Origin: Streptomyces luomodiensis
GTDB lineage: Bacteria > Actinomycetota > Actinomycetes > Streptomycetales > Streptomycetaceae
Direction: 5' to 3'
Length of the DNA: 64,000 nt
Assembly: GCF_031679605.1 (NCBI RefSeq)
Contig: NZ_CP117522.1
Coordinates: 7,440,001-7,504,000, forward strand
Below the pieces are notes generated by a model. That model was given only the letters and a program-made list of their open reading frames with translations, was not told where the DNA came from and searched no databases. A program made the position numbers and the translations under genes. Shown here piece after piece: positions 31,344 through 43,946 of the stretch. Each line of letters begins with the position of its first letter. Position 1 is the first letter of the stretch.

Positions 31344-32279
31344 TCAGTGCGGAATGGTGTCGATCACCTCGCGGGCGCCCTGCCGCAGCAGCGCCACCGC
31401 GACCGACGTCCCCAGGGTGGCCGGGTCCAGCGGACCCGCCCACTCATGGGCGTCCAGCACCGTCTTGCCGTCCGGGCTGAAGACCCGGGCGCGCAGCGAG
31501 AGCCGGCCGTCCCGCTCGGCCCTGGCGTATCCCGCGATGGGGGAGTTGCAGTGCCCTTGGAGCACATGCAGCAGCATCCGCTCCGCGGTGATCTCCTTCC
31601 AGGCGTTGGTGTCGCCGAGCCCGGACACGGCCTCGATCGTCTCGGCGTCGTCCTCCCGGCACTGGAGCCCCAGCACCCCGGCCCCGATCGGCGGGCACAT
31701 GGTCTCCACGGACAGGATCTCGCTGATCCGGTCCGTACGGCCGATCCGCTCCAGCCCCGAGACGGCCAGCAGCAGCGCGTCGCACTCGCCCGCTTCCAGC
31801 TTCTCCAGCCGGCGGTTGGCGTTGCCGCGCATCGGCACGCACTCCAGCTGCGGGTGGGTGGTGGCCAGTTGGGCGACGCGCCGGACCGAGGAGGTGCCGA
31901 TCCGGGTCCCCGCGGGCATCTCGTCGAGGGTCAGCCCCTCGGGGTGGATGACGGCGTCGCGGATGTCGTCGCGCTTGAGGTACGCGGCGAAGACCGTGCC
32001 CGCGGGCAGCGGACGGTCGGCGGGCACGTCCTTGATGCAGTGCACCGCGAGATCCGCCTCGCCCGCCAGCAGCGCGGCGTCCACCTCCTTGGTGAACGCC
32101 CCCTTCCCGCCGAGCTTCGACAGATCGCCCATCCAGCGGTCGCCGGAGGTGGTGACCGGGACGACCTCCGTACGGATGCCCGGCCGCAGCGCGGCCAGTT
32201 CGGTGCGGACCCGTTCGACCTGGGCGAGGGCCATGGGGGAGGAACGGGAGACGATGCGGATCAAATCGGCGGACGACAT
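31344..32279 (-). CDS. hemC: porphobilinogen deaminase (hydroxymethylbilane synthase), stand-alone paralogue
   Basis: A 311-aa HemC. Conserved catalytic Asp84 appears in HCIKDVP (canonical HSMKDVP), [10 protein letters not shown] and MRGNANRRL match the cofactor/substrate-binding segments, and Cys244 ([12 protein letters not shown]) is the dipyrromethane attachment site. It should condense four porphobilinogen molecules. It is not with hemA/hemB/hemD; Streptomyces usually carries its main hemC in such an operon, so this is probably a second copy, perhaps for dedicated tetrapyrrole demand. Start ATG 32279; frame open to 32333 but without a better start. It lies 64 bases downstream of the conflict operon on the same strand, so read-through is possible. 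Confidence 0.9.
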
Positions 32280-32343
32280 GGCGTAGAGGATAGGCCGTGT
32301 CGGTCGCGATGTGAGCCGCGTCCCCGGCTCCACGGGACGGGGG

Positions 32344-35300
32344 TCAGCCCCCGGCGCTGGGGAAATCCTCCGCGACCAGGGACGCGAGCGTGACGAACGC
32401 CTCCCGGGTTCTCGTCCGCATCATGGCCGGATCGACCTCGCCGCCGGTCGCCAGGTACTCGTCGTGGGGCACGACGACCACGCCACGGCAGCGGTTCCGA
32501 TACCCCGCCGGCAGATCCGTCGGCACCTCCGCCTCGTTCGCCGGGTACGGCATGTTGATCACGACGATGGCGCGCCGCACCAGCTCCGCGTGACCGTCCT
32601 GGACCAGCCGGTCCAGGGTCGTGTGCGCACTCCTCATGCGCTCCACCGAGGGGGCGGTGACGACGATCAGTTGGTCGGCGAGGCCGAGGACCCCCGGCAT
32701 GATGTCGGGGAGGGCGCCGGTGTCCGAGTCGGCGAGGATGATCGAGTAGTGCCTGCTCAGCCCCGCGATGACGCGTCGGTATCCGGCGTCGTCGATCGGG
32801 ATCGCCGATGTCGCGGGGTCCACCGGGCCGGAGTTCCCGACGAGAACCTCCAGCCCGGAGGGTGTCCGGGTGGTGAACCGCCGGATGGACGGATAGTCAT
32901 CCAGGGCACCGGCGGAGTTCGCCAGATCGTGGATCGTCGCGGCGGTCCGGCCGGGGACGCGGCGGCTGAGGGCGTCACCCCCGGGGATCGCGTCCACCGC
33001 GATGACCTTGCCGAGACGCTCACCGGCGAGGAGCGCGCCGAGCGCGAGGGTCGTGGTGGACCGGCCGGCCGCGACCGGGCGGCTGATCACCGCGATGCGG
33101 TGGCCGGGGAGTGCCTGCGCGCGGACCATCGCAGACTCGCGCCGCCGCGTCGTGGAGGTCGGCGACCTCCTGGATTCCGGCGTGTTCCGCGGCAGCCGGT
33201 CGCTGGACAGCTCGATAGTGACGGTGTCCTCCAGCGGAGCCCCGGTGACCGGCGCCGCCGGCGTGGTGCTCCCGCCGGCGTCCGGGCCGGCGGGTGGGAT
33301 GGCGTCCGGGCCGGTGGGCGGTTCGGCGGGTGGGGTGGCCCCCGGATCGGCGGGTGGGTCGGTACCCGGATCGGCGGGCGGTTCGGCGGGTCGGTCGACG
33401 CCGGGGCCGGCGGGTGGGTCGCCCCCCGGCTCGGCGGGCGTGATGACCTCCGGGTCGGCGCCGGGGCGGCCCGGCGGGGTGGCGTCCGGGGTGGCGGACG
33501 GGAAGGCCGGTGGCCCGGCTGCGGAGGGTTGCGGCCCGTACGAGGGTGAGGGTGCCGACGGTCCGTACGTGGGCGCCTGCGGCTCGGCTCGGGGCGCCGG
33601 GGGCCGGGGCGCCGACCACGCGGGCGGGGACATGGGACCGTCCGCGGTGGAGGCGAACGCGTCCGCCACCTGGCGTGCCGCCGCCGGACCGGTGAGTTCG
33701 CGGCTGAGGCACGCCATGACGACCGCCCGCAGCGGCGCCCGGCCGCGGCCCTCCCACCGGGAGCCCGCCCAGGGGTCGGCCGCGGTTTCCTCTCCTCCGC
33801 CCAGCGCCATCAGGATCCGCCCCAGGGCGAGGATGTCGTCCCCGAGGGGAGGCCGCTCGGAGACAGGCGGGGCCCCGGGCCAGTCGGCGATGGCGGCGTC
33901 GCCCCAGCCCACCAGCTTCACGGTGTCGCCCACGACCAGCACCCGGTCTGCCGTCAGCCGCCCGTGGGTGATGCCCTCGGCGGTGCAGGAGGCCACGGCC
34001 TCGGCGAGGTGCCAGCCGAGGACGACGGCCCGGTGCGCCTCATGGTCGTGATCCGCGCCGCCGCGCATCTGGGACAGCACGGTGGTCAGCCGCAGCGCCG
34101 GTGACCGCTCGGAAACCCGGACGAACTGTTCCGCGAGCCAGGGCCGGTCGTCCTCGGACCGGTCCAGGTAAAGCCTCGGCGCGTAGAGGCCGCCCATCCG
34201 GCGCAGCGCTTCGGCCACCGTGCGCAGCCGTCGTGCTGCCCGCGCCGAGGGGAGGTCGCCGCGCACGGCGCGCACCACGGCGATCCGGTCCCTGTCGCTG
34301 CCCTGGTCGACGGCGAGATAGGCGGCGGAGTCGGCGTCCTCGGCCAGGCTGCCCACGACCTTGTAGGGGCCGAACGTCCGCGGGTTGTCGTGCCGGATCG
34401 TGATGCCGTACGGGAGGTCGCCGATGACCACCCCCTCCTCCGGCGGATTCCCCCGCTCGGTTGGCGTCGCGGCACCGGACTCGGGCGCCGGGGGAGCCGT
34501 GGGGAGAGGGACGGCCGTTTCGGGCTCGGGGAGGAGACGGCCGCACCTGCCGCAGTAGCGGTCGTGGAACTCCGCCGCCGCCCCGCAGTTGGGGCAGTAC
34601 CTGGCCCGCCCCCGCTCGGTGATCCGGGTGAGGGAGGCGACGTTCATCCCGCACGACTCGCAGTACGGGTCGCCCTGCAACAGCGGTGTCTCGCAGTGCG
34701 GGCAGACGAGGCGCCGCCCTTGCGGGCCCTGCTGCCACAGGGGGGCCGCCGCCGTTTGGGGCGGGGCGGTGAACGCTTCCGGTGCCTCCGAGGGCGCCGG
34801 GTACTCCTGGGGCTCCGCGCTCGTCGGGTACTCCGCGGGCTCCGCGGCCGCCAGGTACTCCGGGAGGTCCGAGGGCGCCGGGGCGTCGGGGAGTTCCGAG
34901 GGCGCCAGGGGGTCCGGGAGCCCCGCGGCCCTCATGTGTCCCGGGGACCCCGGGGCCGTCGGCCGCACCGGGAACCCCACGGGCGCGCTCGGCGCGGATG
35001 GCGGCCCCGGCCGCGCGGGCGGAAGCGCCGGGGCGCCGAAGCGCGCCGCCAGGCGCGGCCCCACCTCGGCGAAGGCCCGCACCCCGGCGGGGAGGGAGTC
35101 CGGGCCGCTCGGATGGGCGAGCCAGGCGGGGAAGTCCGGTGAGCGGCCCGCCAGTTGCCCCAGCTTCTGCCCGACGCGCCGTCCGGTGACCATGAGTTCG
35201 GCGGTCGGGACCGCGTCCAGCAGGGCGTCCCGCGCCGTCTCGGCGAAGTCGAAGACACGGTGCCGCGGCAGCGGCTCCTCGGCCCACGGCCCCGCCGTGA

Positions 35301-36822
35301 CGGGCCGCAGCAGCCCGCCCAGGAAGACCTCCGCGAGGTGGGCGGTGTCCGCCTGCCAGGGGACGGCGGCCTGCACCAGCCGCATGACCGGGACGGACAC
35401 CGGCGCGACGGCGGCGAGGTGCGCGGCCAGGCGGTACGCCTCCGGGGAGGCCGCGTCCCGGAAGCGCTGGACGGCGCCCAGCCCGTCGGCGGGCGGCGCC
35501 CCGCCCTCCCGGGCCGGTTCCGGACGGCTCAGCAGGGGCATCAGCGCACTGCCGCCCGGGGAGGCCACCAGCCGGGCCCAGGCGGTCATCGAACCGGGCT
35601 CCGGTTCCAGGACCGGCACCGGGACGCCGTCGAAGGGCGCCAGATCCGCCGGCAGCACGGGATCGCTGACCGCCCACTCGGTGTTCGGCCCGCCGCTGCG
35701 CCGGGTGGTCACCTGCCACCGCTGTGCCCGGATGCCGGAGCCGTCCCACATCCGGCGCGGCAGCGCGTGCAGGACGGCCGTGGGCCCGTACCGCGCCCAC
35801 CGCCGTACCGCCGCGTGCTTGCGCCCGTCCCGCCAGGCCGGTCCCATGCCGTCGCTCAGCACGAGGACCAGCGTCTGGCCCGACGGATCGGCCAGCACCC
35901 GCGACGGCATCGTGGCGGACGACGGGTCGAAGGGGCGGACGCTGAGCCGGGGCCGGGCGGCGGGGCCCTGGGAGTGCAGTCCGTAGGTCCGTACGAGCCG
36001 GAAGGCGCCGAGCCGCTCCATCATCGCGCGGATCTCCGTGGCCAGCCGCTGCCACAGCAGCATCGACATGCCGTCGTCGATGACGAGCGCCAGATCCAGC
36101 CACCGCTCGCGCGCGGGCCGCAGGGCGACGTCCGGCAGCCCGGTCTCGGCGAGCGCCGTCACCGTCGCCTCCACGTCCAGCTCCCGCTTGGAGACGCTCG
36201 GCCGGTGCTGCTTGAGCGGGCGCAGCGCCCGGCCGATCCGCAGCTCGGCGCGGAGCGCCTTGCCCTCCGGGACGCGCAGCGCGAGCGCGCCCGGCGGGTC
36301 CGGGGCGCGGTGGTCCGCGGACCGGTCCGTGGGGTGGTCGCGGGCGGGGGCGGCGTGCAGCCCCGCCACGCGCCCCTCGGCGGGCGGGGGCGGAGGGCCG
36401 GGGAGGGCGCGGGACGGCGGCGGGGAAAGGAGGTAGTCCCCGTCCGCGTCGGTCGGGCCCTCGCCGGCCGGGCCACTGTCCAGCGGGTCTCTCCCGGCCG
36501 GGGCCCCGCCCGCCGGGTTCTCGCGGTCGGGGTCGTCGGCCACGGAGACGCGGTCCGGGTGGAGCCGGTCCGCGCCGCCCCCGTCCGCGAACGCGACGTC
36601 CCCCTCCGCGAGGTCCTCGTCCGCCGGGGCCTCCGGCACCGCCGGGACGGGGGGCCGGGCGAGGAAGCGCGGCAGCGGCGCGTCCCCGGCCCCCGTGGGC
36701 AGCCGTCGCGCCAGCCACAGCGCGTCCAGCAGCTCCTCCTGGGCCAGCGGGACACCGCTGTCGGCGAGGACCGCGAGCAGCGCGCTCAGGTCCGCACCGA
36801 GCCGGTCGGCGTCCCCGGTCAT
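32344..36822 (-). CDS. giant SAV_2336-type vWA / zinc-ribbon / pseudokinase / MinD-like fusion protein
   Basis: 1492 aa, last gene of a putative conflict operon. Domains by residue: 1-60 small helical SAV_2336 N-terminus; 61-190 acidic Pro-rich linker; ~240-400 vWA-like module with degenerate MIDAS (Asp249, Gly251 for the first Ser, Ser253; SDG Asp324); 445-600 helical; 600-700 Pro/Glu linker; two zinc ribbons (Cys707/710/721/724 and Cys743/746/757/760); ~795-1062 Ser/Thr-kinase fold lacking key residues (HRD is HGR at 953-955, DFG is GWG, no Gly-rich loop): a pseudokinase; ~1065-1200 Pro-rich repeats; 1235-1492 MinD/ParA-like ATPase with P-loop Lys replaced by Arg1254 (AAGRSTTT), Walker A'-type Asp1277 kept. 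Likely a sensor/scaffold of the adjacent MoxR and protease. Confidence 0.82.
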
Positions 36823-36826
36823 CGGG

Positions 36827-38011
36827 CTACACCGCCCCGCTCAGCCGGTGCAGCACGGCGTCCAGCAGCCCGTCCGCGTCCAGGTCCACGCCGCCCGCCC
36901 GCAGGAAGACCGCGTTCAGCAGCTGGTCGGTGGCCAGCTCGCCCGGCGCGCGGCGGCGCAGGAACGCCTGGAGCAGGTCGTCCACCTCGTGCAGCGCGTC
37001 CTCGCCCAGGTGCGCGGCGACGATCGCGCGCAGCCGGTGCTCGTCCGGCGGCGGCAGCTCCAGCCGTACGCAGCGGCGCAGGAAGGCGGGCGGGAAGTCG
37101 CGTTCGCCGTTGCTGGTGATGACGACGACCGGGAACTCCGCACAGCGCACCCGGCCGCGCACCACGACCGTCTTCTCGTCGATCCGCAGCGTCGGCACGA
37201 GCACCTCGGGCTGTTCGTCGGAGAGCCGCGACAGCTCGGGGATCTCGAACTCGCCCTCCTCGAAGACCGTCAGCAGATCGTTCGGCAGGTCCACATCGCC
37301 CTTGTCGAGCTCGTCGATGAGCAGGACGCGGGGCCGTGGTCCGGGTACCAGGGCGGTGCCGAGCGGGCCGAGCCGCATGAAGGAGCCGATGTCCGGCTCG
37401 GGGCGGCCGTGATCCCGGCTCATGGTCGTCTCGCGCAGCCGGCCGACGGCGTCGTAGCGGTAGAGCGCGTCCTGCACGGTGGAGCGGCTGTTGACCGGCC
37501 AGCGCAGCACTTCGCCCAGGCCCAGCTCATGCGCCACCGCATGGGCCAGCGACGACTTGCCCGTGCCGGGCTGGCCGGTGACCAGCAGGGGGCGGCGCAG
37601 ATGGAGCGCCGCGTTCACGACGTCGGCGTGGCGGGGGGAGATCAGATACGGCGGAGGGGCGTGCCCGGCGGCCCCGGGACGCCCGGCGCCGCCGAACCGC
37701 CGCCAGGGCGGGGCCGGCGGCAGCGGCGCCGGGCGTGCCACGCCGTCCCCGCGGAAGAGCCGCCAGCTCGCCGGCGCGTCCGGGGCCGGGCCGTCCGGGG
37801 CGGGCGGGGCCGGGGGCGGACCCGGCCGGGGGTTCTGCTGGTACCAGGCGGGACCGCTGTAGTCGATGGTGAACCCGCTGTCGGGAACGGGCTCGTCCCC
37901 CTCCGGCACAGGGCCGGCGCCGTCCCTGCCCGAGGCCGCGTCCCGCGACGCGGGGGGAAGGGACCGGGGCCGGTCGTCGTCCCGGCCGCCGTCGCCGCTC
38001 CGTGCCGTCAT
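36827..38011 (-). CDS. MoxR-type AAA+ ATPase of the VMAP-like system
   Basis: A 394-aa AAA+ ATPase. The first ~120 residues are a low-complexity Pro-rich arm. The ATPase core begins at ISPRHADVVNAAL; Walker A GQPGTGKS at 146-153, Walker B VLLIDELDK at 229-237, sensor 1 in FPVVVITSNGERDFPPAFLRR (Asn) with the arginine finger region RRCVRLELP. This is the MoxR group, which remodels vWA partners. GGAGG precedes ATG 38011. It is 4 bases from the vWA gene and 31 from the protease gene, so the three are co-transcribed. The role, opening or loading a partner after a signal, is inferred from the family. Confidence 0.92.
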   Translation of the reverse strand: MTARSGDGGRDDDRPRSLPPASRDAASGRDGAGPVPEGDEPVPDSGFTIDYSGPAWYQQNPRPGPPPAPPAPDGPAPDAPASWRLFRGDGVARPAPLPPAPPWRRFGGAGRPGAAGHAPPPYLISPRHADVVNAALHLRRPLLVTGQPGTGKSSLAHAVAHELGLGEVLRWPVNSRSTVQDALYRYDAVGRLRETTMSRDHGRPEPDIGSFMRLGPLGTALVPGPRPRVLLIDELDKGDVDLPNDLLTVFEEGEFEIPELSRLSDEQPEVLVPTLRIDEKTVVVRGRVRCAEFPVVVITSNGERDFPPAFLRRCVRLELPPPDEHRLRAIVAAHLGEDALHEVDDLLQAFLRRRAPGELATDQLLNAVFLRAGGVDLDADGLLDAVLHRLSGAV

Positions 38012-38042
38012 GAGACCTCCATAGCGCTGTCCTTGGTGTTCA

Positions 38043-40253
38043 TCACGTCTCCGTAGGATCGGCCAATTCCAGCCGCGGCATGTCACGGTCGACGTCGGCC
38101 CAGGCCAGTACCGGCCGCCCCGGGAAGGATTGCGGGCAGCCGAGGGTCTTGGCGCGGTAGGCGCGCACCGTCTCGGGCAGCCGGCGCGGCGGGGTGCCCG
38201 CGACCGTCCGTACGGCGTGGGAGCCGGCCTCCCCGCCCTTGTCCCGGTCCCAGAGCACGACCGGCATCCCCATCGCCAGACACACCTGCACGATCTCGAC
38301 ACGGACATCCGCCGGGACGCCGTCCACGGTGGCCAGCGGGGCGTCCAGCTGATCCATGAGCAGCGCGTACACCCCGTTCTTCCCGCCCGTCGAACGGTCG
38401 ATGTGCACCGCGCCCCCGTCGTCCAGCCGCGCCCAGCGGTGGCGCAGCGCCGCCTTGAAGCGCTCACCGGACCGCTGCACCAGTTCCGGACAGGTGACCA
38501 CCAGCGGATACTCCGCGCCCAGCACTCCGGGGACCAGACCGGCCGGGCCCGGCCACTCCCACTGGTCGACCGGGAGCTCCAACCCCTCGCGGTCCACGAT
38601 GAGTTCGATGACCGGACGGGTGCCCGCCGGGAGCGCCCGGTGCAGCGGTTCGATCACGGTGAGGATGTCCTCGGCCGCCTGCGCGGCGGTGCGGAGCCGG
38701 TCGCCGCCGTCCGAGACGCGCCGCGGCCCGGCGCCCTCGTCGCACCACAGCCACAGCCGGTAGCGGCGGGTGCCGTCGCCGTCGGGGTGGGTGGTGAGCC
38801 GTACCAGCACCCGGGGCGCCGCCATGGGCGTCCGCTGCCGCTCCGCCCACTCATGGGCGTCCGCCCGGCGCTCCTCCAGGGCCGCCTGGTGGATGCCGAG
38901 GCGGGCGGCGACCGCCGTGCTCCAGCGGTGCAGTCCGTCGCGCGGGGCGGGCGGGCACAGGGCCGCCACATAGGCGACCACGCGCAGCAGCCCGGGGACG
39001 ACCGATGTGCCCTCCGGGACCGGGCGGCTGTCCCCGCGCAGCCCCTCCAGGTACTCGACCAGCGCCGTCAGCCGCGCCGTGCGCACGGCCCGGTCCGGGC
39101 TGTCCCAGTCGGCCCCGGCCAGCAGCGCCCCGGGCAGTTCGGCGAGCGGCAGCGCGGCCCGTACGACGGAGGGGAAGCGGGCCGCCGTCCCGAGGGGCAC
39201 CTCGCCCAGCAGCCCCAGCAACTCGCCCAGCTCACCGGGGGAGAGCAGCCGGGGCACGCCGGACATCCGCCCGGCGGCGAGGAGTTCGGCCACCGCGTGC
39301 GGCGCGGCGGGGTGCAGCACCTCGGCGAGGGCGGGCAGCGCGCGGGCGTCGGTGGTGAGCAGCCGCGCGAACTCGTCGACCGAGGGGGCGGAGCCGTCCG
39401 TCCGGTGGTGGTGGCCGCACCGCCAGGCGACGGTGCGCGCGCAGTCGGCCCGCCGCTGGGGGTCCGCGAGCGCCCGGCCGAGGACGGCGGCCAGCGCCCG
39501 GTGGGCGGGGTCGACGGCCCTCTCGCCCGCCGCCGGCGCGGGCCGGCCGAGGACGTGCTCGGCGCCCGCGCGGGCCAGCTCGGCCCGGATCCGCTGCCAG
39601 GGGATGCCCCAGCTGCGCCGGGCGACATGCTGCGGGGAGTACGCGAGCGGGGTGCCGTTGGTGGGGTGGTGCGGGGGTGTGAGGGCGGCCGCCACCAGGC
39701 CGACCACCGCGCCCGCCTCGCCCGACCACAGCGGCCCTCCGCTGTAGCCGTGGTCGATGGCGACACCGCTCAGCCCCTCGCCGTCCACATAGCCGATCCG
39801 GCCGTCGCACGAGATCACCCGCGCGGTGGCGACGGTGGCGTGCAGCCCGCTGCCGTGCCACGCCCGGACGGACTGCCCCTCGGCCATCGCCTGCCAGTGC
39901 GGCGGCCGCACATCGCGGGGGAGCGGCTCGACGATGTCGAGCACGGCGAGGTCGCCGTCCCACTCCACGCCGTTCGCCGCGCCCGGCGGTATCCATACGG
40001 CCAGCCGGGCCGTGCACGCGTGCGCATGGCCGTCCGGGCCGTGCACCAGCACCTTCAGGACCTCCTGCGCCGGACGCTCGGCGCAGGTCGTGTCCTCCCT
40101 GCCGAGCGCGCAGTTGACGACGTGCGCGCAGGTCAGGAAGCGGTCATGGGGCAGCAGCACGCCGGAGCCGACCGCCTCGCGGTCGAACTGGCTCAGGACC
40201 GAGACCGTGGCCGGGCGCTGTCCGGGGGACGGGACGGGGCGGAACCACTCCAT
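38043..40253 (-). CDS. trypsin-like protease fused to VMAP-type C-terminal region
   Basis: A 736-aa protein. Residues ~12-195 are a chymotrypsin/trypsin-fold protease with triad His44 (LTCAHVV), Asp101 (DLAVLDI) and Ser171 (GYSGGPL). No signal peptide precedes it, so it is intracellular, unlike secreted proteases. The middle (~240-470) is helical. The C-terminal ~230 residues (PVIELIVDREGLELPVDQWE, VGPLVVTCPEL-type strands, VCLAMGMPVVLWDRDKG) match my knowledge of the VMAP C-terminal domain of vWA-MoxR-associated proteins. The protease is the probable effector, held inactive until the ATPase/vWA partners respond. Start ATG 40253 lies 3 bases after the small gene's stop. Confidence 0.88.
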   Translation of the reverse strand: MEWFRPVPSPGQRPATVSVLSQFDREAVGSGVLLPHDRFLTCAHVVNCALGREDTTCAERPAQEVLKVLVHGPDGHAHACTARLAVWIPPGAANGVEWDGDLAVLDIVEPLPRDVRPPHWQAMAEGQSVRAWHGSGLHATVATARVISCDGRIGYVDGEGLSGVAIDHGYSGGPLWSGEAGAVVGLVAAALTPPHHPTNGTPLAYSPQHVARRSWGIPWQRIRAELARAGAEHVLGRPAPAAGERAVDPAHRALAAVLGRALADPQRRADCARTVAWRCGHHHRTDGSAPSVDEFARLLTTDARALPALAEVLHPAAPHAVAELLAAGRMSGVPRLLSPGELGELLGLLGEVPLGTAARFPSVVRAALPLAELPGALLAGADWDSPDRAVRTARLTALVEYLEGLRGDSRPVPEGTSVVPGLLRVVAYVAALCPPAPRDGLHRWSTAVAARLGIHQAALEERRADAHEWAERQRTPMAAPRVLVRLTTHPDGDGTRRYRLWLWCDEGAGPRRVSDGGDRLRTAAQAAEDILTVIEPLHRALPAGTRPVIELIVDREGLELPVDQWEWPGPAGLVPGVLGAEYPLVVTCPELVQRSGERFKAALRHRWARLDDGGAVHIDRSTGGKNGVYALLMDQLDAPLATVDGVPADVRVEIVQVCLAMGMPVVLWDRDKGGEAGSHAVRTVAGTPPRRLPETVRAYRAKTLGCPQSFPGRPVLAWADVDRDMPRLELADPTET

Positions 40254-40256
40254 CGG

Positions 40257-40709
40257 TCAGGCCGTGGGGGAGCCCGAGGGACCCGACCGCTGCCAGGTGG
40301 CCGAGATCGTCATGCTCGCCTGGCCGTTGGCCCCGACGATGCCGAGCTTGAGGTCCTGGCCGATCTGCACCCCGAACTGCACCTGCATCTCATCGGGCGG
40401 ATTCGCGGTGGCGGACACGGCGTCGTGCACCTCCTGCAACAGCGGCCCCAGCGGCCGCAGTACGGCCCGTAGGCCGTCGGCCGCCAGCGCCGCCGCGGCT
40501 CTCGGTCCCCGGGCCACTGGGGTCACACCTCCGATCCCGCCGGGCAGGGCGGGCCCCTGCCGCTTCGCGCCGTCGCCGTCGCCGTCGCCTTCGCCTTGCC
40601 CTTGGCCGTTGGCCGGGGCGGCGGCGGGTGCGGGTGCGGTGCTTACGGGCGTCAGTTCCAGGCGTACGGGGGTGCCATCGGGGAGCGCGAATTCGGCGTA
40701 GTCCGTCAC
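40257..40709 (-). CDS. Trypco1-like small partner of the trypsin/VMAP protein
   Basis: A 150-aa protein, GTG start at 40709. The opening DYAEFALPDGTPVRLEL, a Gly/Asp-rich linker (~34-55) and the C-terminal helix-strand block (LRPLGPLLQEVHDAV, then PPDEMQVQFGVQIGQDLKLGI and SMTISATWQRS) fit the trypsin-co-occurring domain 1 (CU044_2847-type) pattern. Such domains are found only beside or fused to the trypsin-like components of these systems, and probably modulate the protease. It is the promoter-proximal gene of the four-gene operon. Family assignment is by eye. Confidence 0.78.
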   Translation of the reverse strand: MTDYAEFALPDGTPVRLELTPVSTAPAPAAAPANGQGQGEGDGDGDGAKRQGPALPGGIGGVTPVARGPRAAAALAADGLRAVLRPLGPLLQEVHDAVSATANPPDEMQVQFGVQIGQDLKLGIVGANGQASMTISATWQRSGPSGSPTA

Positions 40710-40877
40710 GCCCCCATGATGCCGATCTCACCGCGGCTGGTCTCCCCTTTTGCGGCAACATCCCTTGTGGCGCGGGAGAGCGGTGAGCGGGGGCGGCCCC
40801 GCCCGGCCCGATGAGGCGGCACGTCGATGTCGGATTTCCGCGAGCGCCCGCCCGCCCCGTCGGCGGATGCTGGACCC
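40710..40877. promoter_or_regulatory. divergent promoter region between the conflict operon and ada-alkA
   Basis: 168 bases with promoters for both directions expected. No strong -35/-10 pair can be named. CGGATGCTGGACCC directly before ATG 40878 could be a -10 region (GGATGCT) of a leaderless alkA transcript. No palindromic operator is evident, so the control of the conflict operon is not visible. Confidence 0.35.
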
Positions 40878-42353
40878 ATGCACACCGACACCGACCGGTG
40901 CCTCCGCGCCGCACGGGCGAAGGACGCCCGCTTCGACGGGTGGTTCTTCATCGCCGTCGTGACCACCGGGATCTACTGCCGGCCGAGCTGTCCGGTCGTC
41001 GGGCCCAAGCCCGAGAACATGCGGTTCCTCCCCAGCGCCGCAGCCGCCCAGCAGGCCGGGTTCCGGGCCTGCAAGCGGTGCCGTCCGGACGCCAGTCCCG
41101 GCTCGCCGCAGTGGAACGAGCGCGCCGATCTCGTCGCACGGGCGATGCGGCTGATCGCCGACGGGGTGGTGGACCGGGACGGGGTGCCGGGCCTGGCGGC
41201 CCGGCTGGGCTACAGCACCCGGCAGGTCGAGCGGCAGCTGCTCGCCGAGCTGGGCGCGGGCCCGCTCGCGCTCGCCAGGGCGCAGCGGGCGCAGACCGCG
41301 CGGCTGCTCATCGAGACCAGCGCGCTCCCGATGGCGGACATCGCGTTCGCGGCCGGGTTCGCCAGCGTCCGCGCGTTCAACGAGACCGTACGGGAGGTCT
41401 TCGCGCTCACCCCGACCGAGCTGCGGCAGCGGGCCCGGCGCGGCCCGACGAGCAGCGTGCCGGGGGCGCTCACGCTGCGGCTGCCGTTCCGGGCGCCGCT
41501 GTGCCCGGACAACCTCTTCGGCCATCTGGCCGCCACCGCCGTCCCCGGCGTCGAGGAGTGGCGCGACGGCGCGTACCGGCGCACGCTGCGCCTGCCGTAC
41601 GGGCCGGGCGTGGTCACCCTGAGCCCGCGGCCGGACCACATCGCCTGCCGGCTCTCCCTCGCCGACCTCCGCGACCTGGCCGGCGCGATCAGCCGCTGCC
41701 GGCGGCTGCTGGACCTCGACGCGGACCCGGCCGCCGTGGACGAGCTGCTGCGTACGGACCCCCAGTTGGCCCCGCTGGTGGACAAGGCGCCGGGGCGTCG
41801 GGTGCCGCGCGCGGTGGACGCGGACGAGTTCGCGGTGCGCGCCGTGCTCGGACAGCAGGTGTCCACGGCGGCGGCCCGTACTCACGCCGGCCGCCTGGTG
41901 GCGGCGCACGGCGAGCCGGTGGCGGACCCGGCGGGCGGGCTGACCCACCTCTTCCCGTCCGTTCAGGCCCTCGCCGGGCTGGACCCGGAGAAGCTGGCCA
42001 TGCCCCGCACCCGCCGCGCCACGCTCACCGGGCTGATCGGCGCGCTCGCCGAGGGGCGGGTCGCGCTCGGGGTGGGCAGCGACTGGGACGACGCCCGCGC
42101 CGGCCTCGGCGCGCTGCCGGGGCTCGGCCCCTGGACCGTCGAGGTGATCGCGATGCGCGCCCTCGGCGACCCGGACGCCTTCCTCCCCACCGACCTCGGG
42201 GTGCGGCGCGCCGCCGCCGGCCTGGGGCTGCCCGCCACGCCCGGCGCCCTCACCCGCCACTCGGCGCGCTGGCGCCCCTGGCGCGCGTACGCCGTCCAGT
42301 ACCTGTGGGCCACGGACGACGGCCACGCCATCAACCGCCTGCCCGCCGCCTGA
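40878..42353 (+). CDS. alkA: Ada N-terminal/AraC/AlkA DNA-3-methyladenine glycosylase fusion
   Basis: A 491-aa adaptive-response type protein. Residues 1-75 hold the Ada methyl-phosphotriester domain with zinc Cys34, Cys38, Cys65 and Cys68 (TTGIYCRPSC, CKRC); Cys34 is the methyl acceptor. An AraC-type HTH follows (~95-180, GYSTRQVERQLLAEL, FAAGFASVRAFNETVREVF). The C-terminal ~290 residues are AlkA with the helix-hairpin-helix LPGLGPWTVEVIAMRAL and catalytic Asp in FLPTDLGV. It could sense methylation, activate ogt/alkA and excise damaged bases. Start ATG 40878; a start at 40827 is also open. Followed by ogt. Confidence 0.93.
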   Translation: MHTDTDRCLRAARAKDARFDGWFFIAVVTTGIYCRPSCPVVGPKPENMRFLPSAAAAQQAGFRACKRCRPDASPGSPQWNERADLVARAMRLIADGVVDRDGVPGLAARLGYSTRQVERQLLAELGAGPLALARAQRAQTARLLIETSALPMADIAFAAGFASVRAFNETVREVFALTPTELRQRARRGPTSSVPGALTLRLPFRAPLCPDNLFGHLAATAVPGVEEWRDGAYRRTLRLPYGPGVVTLSPRPDHIACRLSLADLRDLAGAISRCRRLLDLDADPAAVDELLRTDPQLAPLVDKAPGRRVPRAVDADEFAVRAVLGQQVSTAAARTHAGRLVAAHGEPVADPAGGLTHLFPSVQALAGLDPEKLAMPRTRRATLTGLIGALAEGRVALGVGSDWDDARAGLGALPGLGPWTVEVIAMRALGDPDAFLPTDLGVRRAAAGLGLPATPGALTRHSARWRPWRAYAVQYLWATDDGHAINRLPAA

Positions 42354-42677
42354 CCGGCCACCGGCGGGCCCGTACTGCGGCACAATCCCGCGGGGTGAGC
42401 CGCCGACCGCCTGCCCGGTACCGCGTAACCCGCCGGGGTGCGCGACCCGGCCCGTGCTTCTGAAACCCGGCCAGGCCCCGCCGAAGCCCGCAACCGCCGA
42501 ACCCCGCCGAAGCCCGCAATCCCGCCGAAGCCCGCCACAGCCCACCGAACCCCGCCGAACCCAGCGACCGCCGAACCCCGCAACCCCGCCGAAGCCCGCC
42601 ACAGCCCACCGAACCCCGCCGAACCCCGCCAACGCCCGCCAGGGCAACCGCACCGTCCGGACCCGCCGAGGAAACCC
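42354..42677. repeat. 324-bp spacer with low-complexity GCCGAACCCC repeats
   Basis: No gene. From about 42470 to 42645 the sequence is a variable tandem array of CCCGCCGAAGCCCGC / ACCCCGCCGAA units. A 42-base block at 42521-42562 recurs exactly at 42585-42626 (period 64). It lies between alkA and ogt on the same strand; it could weaken or strengthen co-transcription, and is likely length-variable between strains. Confidence 0.8.
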
Positions 42678-43184
42678 GTGCAGAACCGCACCCACACCGT
42701 CGTCGACAGCCCCTACGGCCCGCTCACCCTCGTGGCCACCGGCCCGGAGCTGTCCGGCCTCTACATGGCCGAGCAGCGCCACCGCCCGCCCGAGGAGACC
42801 TTCGGCGCGCCCGGCGACCCCGAGGAGGCCCCCTTCGCCGAGACCGTCCGTCAGCTCGCGGCCTACTTCGCGGGCGAGCTGACCGCGTTCGACCTGCCGT
42901 TGCGTCTGGACGGCACGCCCTTCCAGCGCCGCGTCTGGGACGAGCTGCGGCGCATCCCGTACGGCGAGACCTGGTCGTACGGCCGGCTGGCCGACCGGAT
43001 CGGACAGCCGGCCGCCTCCCGCGCCGTGGGCCTGGCCAACGGCAGGAACCCGATCGGCATCATCGTCCCCTGCCACCGGGTCGTCGGCTCGACCGGCGGT
43101 CTCACCGGCTACGGCGGCGGCCTGGACCGCAAGCGGCGACTGCTGGAGTTCGAGGCCCGGCGGCAGCTCCCCGGTCTTTTCTGA
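42678..43184 (+). CDS. ogt: methylated-DNA--protein-cysteine methyltransferase
   Basis: A 168-aa O6-alkylguanine transferase. GTG start 42678 is supported by CGAGGA upstream. The acceptor Cys lies in IIVPCHRVV; the Asn hinge and helix (RAVGLANGRNP) and WSYGRLADRIGQPAASRAV recognition helix are intact. It repairs O6-methylguanine by suicidal transfer. Paired with the Ada/AlkA gene, it forms a compact alkylation-repair locus. Convergent with the sirtuin gene, 15 bases apart. Confidence 0.94.
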   Translation: MQNRTHTVVDSPYGPLTLVATGPELSGLYMAEQRHRPPEETFGAPGDPEEAPFAETVRQLAAYFAGELTAFDLPLRLDGTPFQRRVWDELRRIPYGETWSYGRLADRIGQPAASRAVGLANGRNPIGIIVPCHRVVGSTGGLTGYGGGLDRKRRLLEFEARRQLPGLF

Positions 43185-43199
43185 CCCCTCGGGCGCCGG

Positions 43200-43946
43200 T
43201 CAGCGGCCCTGGGCGATGCGGTCCAGCAGGGCGGGCAGGGCCGTGCTGATGGGCTCGCGGACGACCTCGTCCGCGAGCTCGTCGTACGGCGTCGGCTCGG
43301 CGTTGACGATGATCAGCCGGGCACCGTGCTCGGCGGCCAGACCGGCGAGCGAGGCCGCGGGCTGGACCTGGAGGCTGGTGCCGACCGCGATGAAGATCTG
43401 GCACGCCTGCGCCACCGCGACCGCCTCGGTCAGCACCTCCGGATCGAGGTTCTCCCCGAACATCACCGTGGCCGACTTCAGGATTCCGCCGCACTCCCGG
43501 CACGCCGGATCCGCCTCCCCCGCCGCGACCCGCTCCAGCGCCTCCGCCATCCGGGACCGCGCCCGGCAGTGGGTGCACTGCACGGCCCGCGCGGTGCCGT
43601 GCAGTTCGAGCACCTTGCGGGCGGGCATCCCGGCGATCTGGTGCAGCCCGTCCACGTTCTGGGTGATCACCCGCACCGGCACCCCCGAGCGCTCCAGCCG
43701 GGCGACGGCCTCGTGCGCCCCGTTGGGCCGGGCGTGCAGCGCCTGGCTGTCGCGCCGCATCCGCCAGGAGCGGCGCCGGATCTCCGGGTCGGTCATGTAG
43801 TACTCGTACGTCACGAGCTTCTCGGCCTCGGGATCGCGCCGCCACAGCCCCTGCGGGCCGCGGTAGTCGGGGATTCCGGAGTCGGTGGAGATGCCCGCCC
43901 CGCTCAGGATCGCCACCAGTGGCCGGTGCGTCGTCTCACTGCTCAT
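43200..43946 (-). CDS. cobB: NAD-dependent protein deacylase, sirtuin (Sir2) family
   Basis: A 248-aa sirtuin. NAD-binding GAGISTDSGIPDYRG, the catalytic His in LELHGTARAVQC, zinc Cys in CTHC and CREC, QNVDGLH (Asn/Asp), FGENL and VGTSLQVQPA are all intact, so it should be active. Acyl specificity (acetyl, succinyl or other) cannot be told. Start ATG 43946 chosen as the first good start downstream of a Arg/Pro-rich shadow. It lies 73 bases from the ADP-ribosylglycohydrolase on the same strand, both dealing with NAD-derived ADP-ribose. Confidence 0.93.
   Translation of the reverse strand: MSSETTHRPLVAILSGAGISTDSGIPDYRGPQGLWRRDPEAEKLVTYEYYMTDPEIRRRSWRMRRDSQALHARPNGAHEAVARLERSGVPVRVITQNVDGLHQIAGMPARKVLELHGTARAVQCTHCRARSRMAEALERVAAGEADPACRECGGILKSATVMFGENLDPEVLTEAVAVAQACQIFIAVGTSLQVQPAASLAGLAAEHGARLIIVNAEPTPYDELADEVVREPISTALPALLDRIAQGR

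Follow-up and report, generated by a model that had tools for sequence, protein, structure and literature searches.

A replaced SCO5717-like tail module in a VMAP ternary system of Streptomyces luomodiensis and its possible bearing on sensing

Which protein of a VMAP ternary system does the sensing, and which one acts? We approach this question through four adjacent genes of Streptomyces luomodiensis encoding a Trypco1 protein, a trypsin/VMAP protein, a MoxR ATPase and a vWA multidomain protein, found in a window of 64,000 nucleotides (the whole stretch of DNA analysed) at 7.44-7.50 Mb of the 10.04-Mb Streptomyces chromosome. As far as the sections of the two papers available to us go, the published models disagree on the sensing part: Kaur et al. 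have the VMAP protein sense through its middle region and the vWA tail act as effector (PMC7159879), and a 2024 PNAS paper proposes that the vWA protein senses and the VMAP protease is the effector (PMC10907252). Papers joining VMAP with MoxR, vWA and trypsin report predictions in their accessible portions, and no experimental study of a VMAP system was found in the literature searched, which covered few subscription papers and no bioRxiv. The sequence-only reading of the window had placed sensing in the fourth protein, the vWA protein, and we favour this direction because the variability data fit it better, without proving it. Since the source strain and strain S465 are near-isogenic, with operons differing mainly by one tail module, the sensing question is testable by a module swap.

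The operon and the block replaced in its tail

The four genes of the operon are:

40257..40709, minus strand: Trypco1 protein, 150 aa, the first gene (Pfam PF19493, E 2.9e-19; NCBIfam NF041216, CU044_2847 family, E 9.2e-14)
38043..40253, minus strand: trypsin/VMAP protein, 736 aa, with a trypsin/HtrA-like domain, a helical middle and VMAP-C (PF13365, PF20028)
36827..38011, minus strand: MoxR AAA+ ATPase, 394 aa (AAA_5, E 1.1e-8), Walker A and B intact
32344..36822, minus strand: SAV_2336/vWA multidomain protein, 1492 aa (NCBIfam NF041121, SAV_2336_NTERM, E 4.9e-111; Pfam DZR, E 6.4e-7)

Re-reading of the open reading frames (ORFs) gave the same minus-strand order and gaps of 3, 31 and 4 bases as had been described from the letters. 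All four frames have a GC-rich third codon position, as real genes do, and MoxR starts with an ATG at 38011 with GGAG upstream. By its domain content, the operon belongs to the classical VMAP ternary systems that Kaur et al. 2020 predicted. The sequence-only reading had staked this identification beforehand on VMAP-C and Trypco1, and both were matched, VMAP-C with E 1.5e-38 and 133.4 bits against a cut-off of 27; the Pfam search it had proposed also returned Trypsin_2 (E 3.5e-10) and AAA_5, with SAV_2336 coming from NCBIfam. The VMAP protein is of the trypsin type with a Trypco1 partner (PF13365 and PF19493 both matched), and the intact Walker motifs reported for MoxR are present as GQPGTGKS and LLIDE. 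The system is less new than had been implied, the layout, including the pairing of trypsin with Trypco1 and the coupling of an inactive kinase with an inactive MinD/ParA domain, being already described in the part of Kaur et al. available to us (PMC7159879).

The modules of the vWA protein are a zinc ribbon, a pseudokinase and a dead MinD/ParA-like domain. The features of this protein, and the block by which it differs from S465, are:

35146..36429, minus strand: SAV_2336 N-terminal/vWA plus linker region (NF041121, residues 132-559), with an altered metal ion-dependent adhesion site (MIDAS), DDGMS
33643..34395, minus strand: pseudokinase region, residues 810-1060, HRD changed to HGR and DFG to GWG
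32450..33455, minus strand: block replaced relative to S465, linker plus ParA/MinD-like module, about residues 1123-1458, about 1.0 kb with sharp borders
32347..33147, minus strand: dead SCO5717-type ParA/MinD-like domain, with Arg in place of the Walker A Lys, about 50% identical to SCO5717-family ATPases

Close relatives of the source strain include S465 and S. violaceusniger. Identity to S465 per 150-base step is 61-74% with indels inside the block and 82% in the border step, as against 93-100% in the operon and flanks outside it, where nearly all steps reach at least 95%. With the borders resolved at base level, identity recovers ahead of the vWA stop codon, and the reading frame is open through the swapped block in both strains. 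We regard module replacement at the locus as firm. Percentage identities of the window to its four syntenic relatives, in the order S465, L016, L014, L015, are:

trypsin: 100, 75 (over 66% of the length), 85, 76
VMAP middle: 98, 86, 84, 77
VMAP-C: 99, 86, 88, 85
MoxR AAA: 99, 93, 89, 88
vWA: 99, 90, 88, 84
vWA linker domain: 98, 89, 84, 83
zinc ribbon: 99, 48, 41, 43
pseudokinase: 98, no match, 42, 41
ParA module: 48, 48, 59, 48
hemC (flanking gene): 99, 95, 95, 93

The VMAP middle (77-98%) and the trypsin domain (75-100%) are thus comparable to the flanking genes (77-100%). Since the zinc ribbon, pseudokinase and ParA module change fast and the VMAP middle is conserved, folded-domain turnover in this lineage of five syntenic alleles sits after the vWA linker.

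A degenerate MIDAS had been noted from the letters. The altered form is there, but it is the rule of the family and not decay of this copy: 126 of 127 vWA proteins (one gap) have Gly in place of the middle Ser of DxSxS, and DxSxS itself occurs in none. HRD is likewise found in none of the 126 proteins that have the pseudokinase region, among them that of the window. These 127 proteins came from two best-120 lists of 90%-identity clusters, by which close pairs are filtered.

Origin of the ParA-like module and of the MoxR peptide

From where might such a module be drawn? Among the matches listed, its closest relatives, at 60%, belong to other lineages, where they lie in SAV_2336 proteins (vWA 51-61%). 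Leaving such proteins aside, the nearest relatives with a name are growth-regulating ATPases of the SCO5717 family (45-49% in the best-match list, 51% to the best one). No paper on SCO5717 was found in the literature searched. The SCO5717_Nterm family is matched in 280 of 295 Streptomyces genomes, 16 of which, our strain included, have more than one match. Our strain has two SCO5717-type genes, one of them at 7.01 Mb among EccE, EccB, mycosin and WXG100 genes of a type VII secretion system (T7SS). The second lies at 1.81 Mb (L040:8540-10180, 547 aa), and its match to the N-terminal peptide has E 0.043.

KGGVGKTT is kept by all 94 SCO5717-type proteins without a vWA region, whereas among 116 vWA-fused modules only 17 keep the catalytic lysine, 89 being without it and 10 gapped there. 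Fused modules that share 68% identity or more with SCO5717 have the full Walker A in 7 of 7 cases; of those with less identity 0 of 99 have it, and 10 more are unaligned at the motif. The window module has lost the deviant Walker A KGGVGKT, with Lys changed to Arg, and in the S465 module this Lys is Gly. Judged by the motif, the window module is a dead derivative of the SCO5717 family, not a working member. Identity to a SCO5717-type domain is 86% for the L016 module, 68-70% for L015, 65-67% for S465 and about 51% for the window. A module of Streptomyces sp. 5-10 (P0124), assigned to the locus by vWA identity only, reaches 88% with the motif intact.

Ten modules were assigned to this locus type, five on synteny and five solely on a vWA identity of 80-88%. 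A single clade for these ten was rejected (p-AU 7.6e-83), as was the grouping of the window and S465 modules (p 0.0019), and the intact modules require three changes on the vWA tree of 67 rows. The module trees had 56 rows, then 52 after removal of four long-branch rows; their SCO5717 rows were every fifth of the 94 plus the two copies of our strain, and their fused rows a hand-picked part of the 116. Identity and motif together suggest repeated capture from SCO5717, the number of captures not being firm. Donors inside the two genomes were considered and rejected: besides the module, our strain has only the two SCO5717-type copies at 51-52% and a MinD-like frame at 31%, and S465, besides its own module, only two copies at 52%.

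A second resemblance to SCO5717 lies in the MoxR protein:

37832..37873, minus strand: SCO5717-type N-terminal peptide FTIDYSGPAWYQQN in MoxR (compared by eye; NF041021 own-genome E 1.8e-4, under the family's curated cut-off)

A search of the genome with NF041021 at E <=10 gave three matches, namely the T7SS-linked SCO5717, MoxR and the SCO5717 paralogue at 1.81 Mb. The peptide reads FSIDYRRPAWYQQN in S465 and FSIDFSPPAWYQQN in L016. In a survey of 93 loci it was found only in the window, S465 and L016 (for L016, not in the frame scored as MoxR but in another), and ParA modules at least 50% identical to SCO5717 were found at five loci, the syntenic ones (four by the survey itself, L016 by a separate comparison), with 18 other loci at 28-37%; at the survey thresholds eight loci had no MoxR match and two had neither gene. 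The survey comprised the window, 12 named loci, the two paralogues of our strain and 78 genus loci, these being hand-picked among the VMAP-C matches listed with six from another search; for the most part they lie on long contigs, and several belong to a single genome. Of the best 120 MoxR clusters two carry the peptide, one being the window's own. The link between peptide and module is inseparable from the clade and therefore amounts to one origin, not repeated co-occurrence. Ahead of the AAA_5 domain, WRLFRGDG and PPWRRF could be recognised by eye as the MoxR motifs WxhapG and PsWRxa.

In the 15 other genomes with several SCO5717_Nterm matches, some of the additional carriers are small proteins whose length leaves no room for a MinD domain and linker. 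Four such proteins of 176-220 residues (L165, L170, L171, L172) have, by eye, PAWYLAN or PAWYLS before a coiled-coil-like end, and an 807-aa frame (L163) has the peptide twice. From this occurrence, Streptomyces may use the peptide repeatedly as a docking motif.

The VMAP protein, related systems and flanking genes

Within the VMAP protein three regions are distinguished:

39696..40169, minus strand: trypsin-like peptidase domain, residues 29-186, with catalytic His44, Asp101 and Ser171
38829..39506, minus strand: VMAP middle region, residues 250-475, nearly all helices in the AlphaFold2 (AF2) model
38094..38765, minus strand: VMAP-C domain, whose model resembles the CHAT/separase fold

The intact triad reported previously was confirmed and is invariant across 11 aligned VMAPs. 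An obvious signal peptide was not seen at the N-terminus, MEWFRP, when read by eye without a predictor, and VMAP-M0 had no match among the Pfam families listed for this protein at E <=1. The AF2 model was built from 11 sequences (predicted local distance difference test 69, predicted template modelling score 0.42), and in it the VMAP-C fold resembles that of CHAT/separase proteases such as Csx29 of the type III-E CRISPR Craspase, at 7% identity. No catalytic His-Cys dyad was found, no alignment column exceeding 72% His or 48% Cys (residues not mapped structurally). Comparison of VMAP-C and CHAT profiles by hhalign (65 against 28 sequences) gave a probability of 0.0-0.1, which does not exceed the 0.1-1.7 of unrelated control alignments. 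A viral structure library gave zero matches to the VMAP-C model at E 0.001 or better; by sequence, the best PDB match of the VMAP-C profile had E 0.042, and the vWA protein had only low-complexity linker matches there. VMAP-C is a candidate CHAT-like fold that the profile comparison does not support, and no paper connecting the two was found in the literature searched. If true, the fold would give a structural home to VMAP-C, the orphan hallmark domain of the 1482 systems described in the consulted part of Kaur et al. (PMC7159879).

VMAP-C is matched in 242 of the 295 Streptomyces genomes. Our strain has three VMAP systems, the other two (L029 and L030, at 1.18 and 3.34 Mb) consisting of a nucleoside phosphorylase-EAD2 protein and an EAD2-VMAP protein with an NB-ARC/TPR tail, and of a caspase-VMAP protein with a TPR tail. 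At 2.085 Mb (L031) a 151-aa frame holds an N-terminal fragment of SAV_2336 (profile positions 93-184), possibly the remnant of a system.

The operon is flanked by the following genes:

31344-32333, minus strand: second of two hemC genes (porphobilinogen deaminase; the other at 5.506 Mb), immediately following the vWA gene
40827-42353, plus strand: Ada/AlkA-type regulator of DNA alkylation repair, divergent from the operon and 117 bases away from where Trypco1 starts

At each of the five syntenic loci the vWA gene is followed by hemC, which was rejected as a fifth operon gene, as nothing ties it to the system and the stored stretches of eight loci (L017-L024) have no match to it. The Ada/AlkA-like gene was not seen in L014, where the contig ends. 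A larger upstream operon was also rejected, the minus-strand ORFs at 40728-43845 having the wrong codon-position GC and the real gene there being the plus-strand one. A mobile origin was dismissed as well, VMAP having no phage match and six plasmid records all being below 60% identity.

Sensing and the comparison with known systems

From the anatomy and the module replacement we propose, tentatively and as a reading that falls a little short of being probable, that the tail is a decoy or sensor, the MoxR/vWA pair a relay and the HtrA-like protease the effector. The tail, with its zinc ribbon, pseudokinase and dead SCO5717-like ATPase, would be a bait imitating host proteins, here a MinD-like ATPase encoded beside type VII secretion genes. 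When an attacker protein engages the bait, the MoxR/vWA pair would remodel the VMAP protein with ATP, MoxR providing an NTP-driven threshold, and the freed protease would cleave cell proteins, leading to growth stop or cell death. Trypco1 could be a cofactor or restraint of the protease and VMAP-C a catalytically dead CHAT-like scaffold, and the bait modules would be renewed by recombination. In plant immune receptors with integrated decoys, a copy of the target protein is fused to the receptor. If our module is a bait, the guarded host protein is named and bacteria would use the same logic. The wider claim that VMAP systems are bacterial integrated-decoy receptors, with the vWA tail and this clade's MoxR N-terminus copied from a guarded SCO5717, catalysis lost, domains swapped and the signal relayed via MoxR to an HtrA-like protease on a dead CHAT-fold scaffold, we consider rather unlikely.

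Several observations weigh against the bait reading. Kaur et al., in the sections available, assign sensing to VMAP and the effector role to the tail (PMC7159879). Variability by itself could be neutral, and it also affects the MoxR N-terminus (91%, 53%, no match and 42%, in the order given above) and residues 1-131 of the vWA protein (95, 58, 59 and 49%), both of which, by our reading, lie outside folded domains. One clade of all vWA-fused modules as against SCO5717 was not rejected (p 0.316), and repeated capture is therefore not proven. Among the five syntenic loci the MoxR peptide is degenerate (cut short) in L014 and absent in L015, and it is missing in NPDC102360, from which another intact SCO5717-like module comes (P0132; MoxR P0259). 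It is also present in unrelated small proteins of other genomes, which may make it a general motif. Neither the module nor VMAP had a match among phage records.

How do the other explanations compare? In the model of Kaur et al. 2020 (PMC7159879, as far as its accessible text goes), VMAP would sense the invader and the protease would release the tail modules as effectors by cutting the vWA protein; a role as dominant-negative or decoy would then fall to the dead SCO5717-like domain, which would bind invader proteins or block the cell's SCO5717. That the cell also has, in active form, the protein of which the tail modules are dead versions, and that the two paralogous systems of the genome have different modules at the equivalent place, would suit this model. 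Its proposed sensor, the VMAP middle, is however conserved in this lineage to about the level of the flanking genes, and we hold the model to be unlikely but of some weight. Neutral variation of the tail, by frequent homologous recombination among SCO5717-like modules without functional meaning, could be guided by the homologous ends, and the closest relatives of the window module do lie in SAV_2336 proteins of other lineages; yet the frame stays open across the swap in both strains and the replacement is selective, affecting pseudokinase and ParA but not vWA, MoxR AAA or VMAP, and we consider this reading quite improbable.

It is also improbable that the operon serves development or secretion rather than immunity, using mimicry to tune what SCO5717 does in type VII secretion or growth. 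The near-ubiquity of the SCO5717 N-terminal family in the genus, its NCBIfam name (growth-regulating), its place beside T7SS genes here and the synteny of the operon in four relatives are as such a regulator would have it. Unlike a housekeeping regulator, however, the mimic has been replaced fast while the SCO5717 domain of our strain is 92-93% identical to a genus relative's, and a VMAP-C match is missing in 53 of the 295 Streptomyces genomes.

Set against known defence systems, the operon proteins gave only weak AAA, kinase and protease matches in PADLOC (best E 2.9e-5), and NCBIfam defence families were far under their cut-offs (MadB ATPase 60.9 of 475 bits, MAD6 kinase 23.1 of 460, IteA 22.9 of 510). 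Unlike the CHAT/separase protease Csx29, VMAP-C has no conserved His or Cys column, and the profile match is not significant. In the proposed reading a copy of a target protein sits on a receptor-type protein as in plant integrated decoys, but the proteins are unrelated and no effector or phage partner is known here; no relevant work joining integrated decoys with bacterial immunity and phage was found in the literature searched. With the SCO5717 family (NCBIfam NF041021, MinD-like, beside T7SS genes) the window shares about 50% identity of its module and the N-terminal peptide in MoxR, but SCO5717 keeps KGGVGKTT whereas the window module is without it and fused to a vWA protein. The VMAP sensors diversified by diversity-generating retroelements, as described in the accessible part of the 2024 PNAS paper (PMC10907252), have the ternary core in common with our system, which differs in whole-domain replacement with indels and substitutions. 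The near-isogenic domain swap, the SCO5717 derivation with the MoxR peptide and the candidate fold of VMAP-C were not seen in the passages of these papers available to us. The classical systems of Kaur et al. are the closest, by what their paper gives in those passages (PMC7159879), with the same gene set, the MoxR motifs WxhapG and PsWRxa, the trypsin-VMAP with Trypco1 and the inactive kinase-MinD/ParA pair. As they describe for paralogous systems of one organism, which mostly differ in their vWA tails, those of our strain carry different tails. Unlike their systems, the window has a MoxR with a SCO5717-type peptide beyond the two named motifs, and a tail module that is traceable to SCO5717 and cleanly swapped between near-identical strains.

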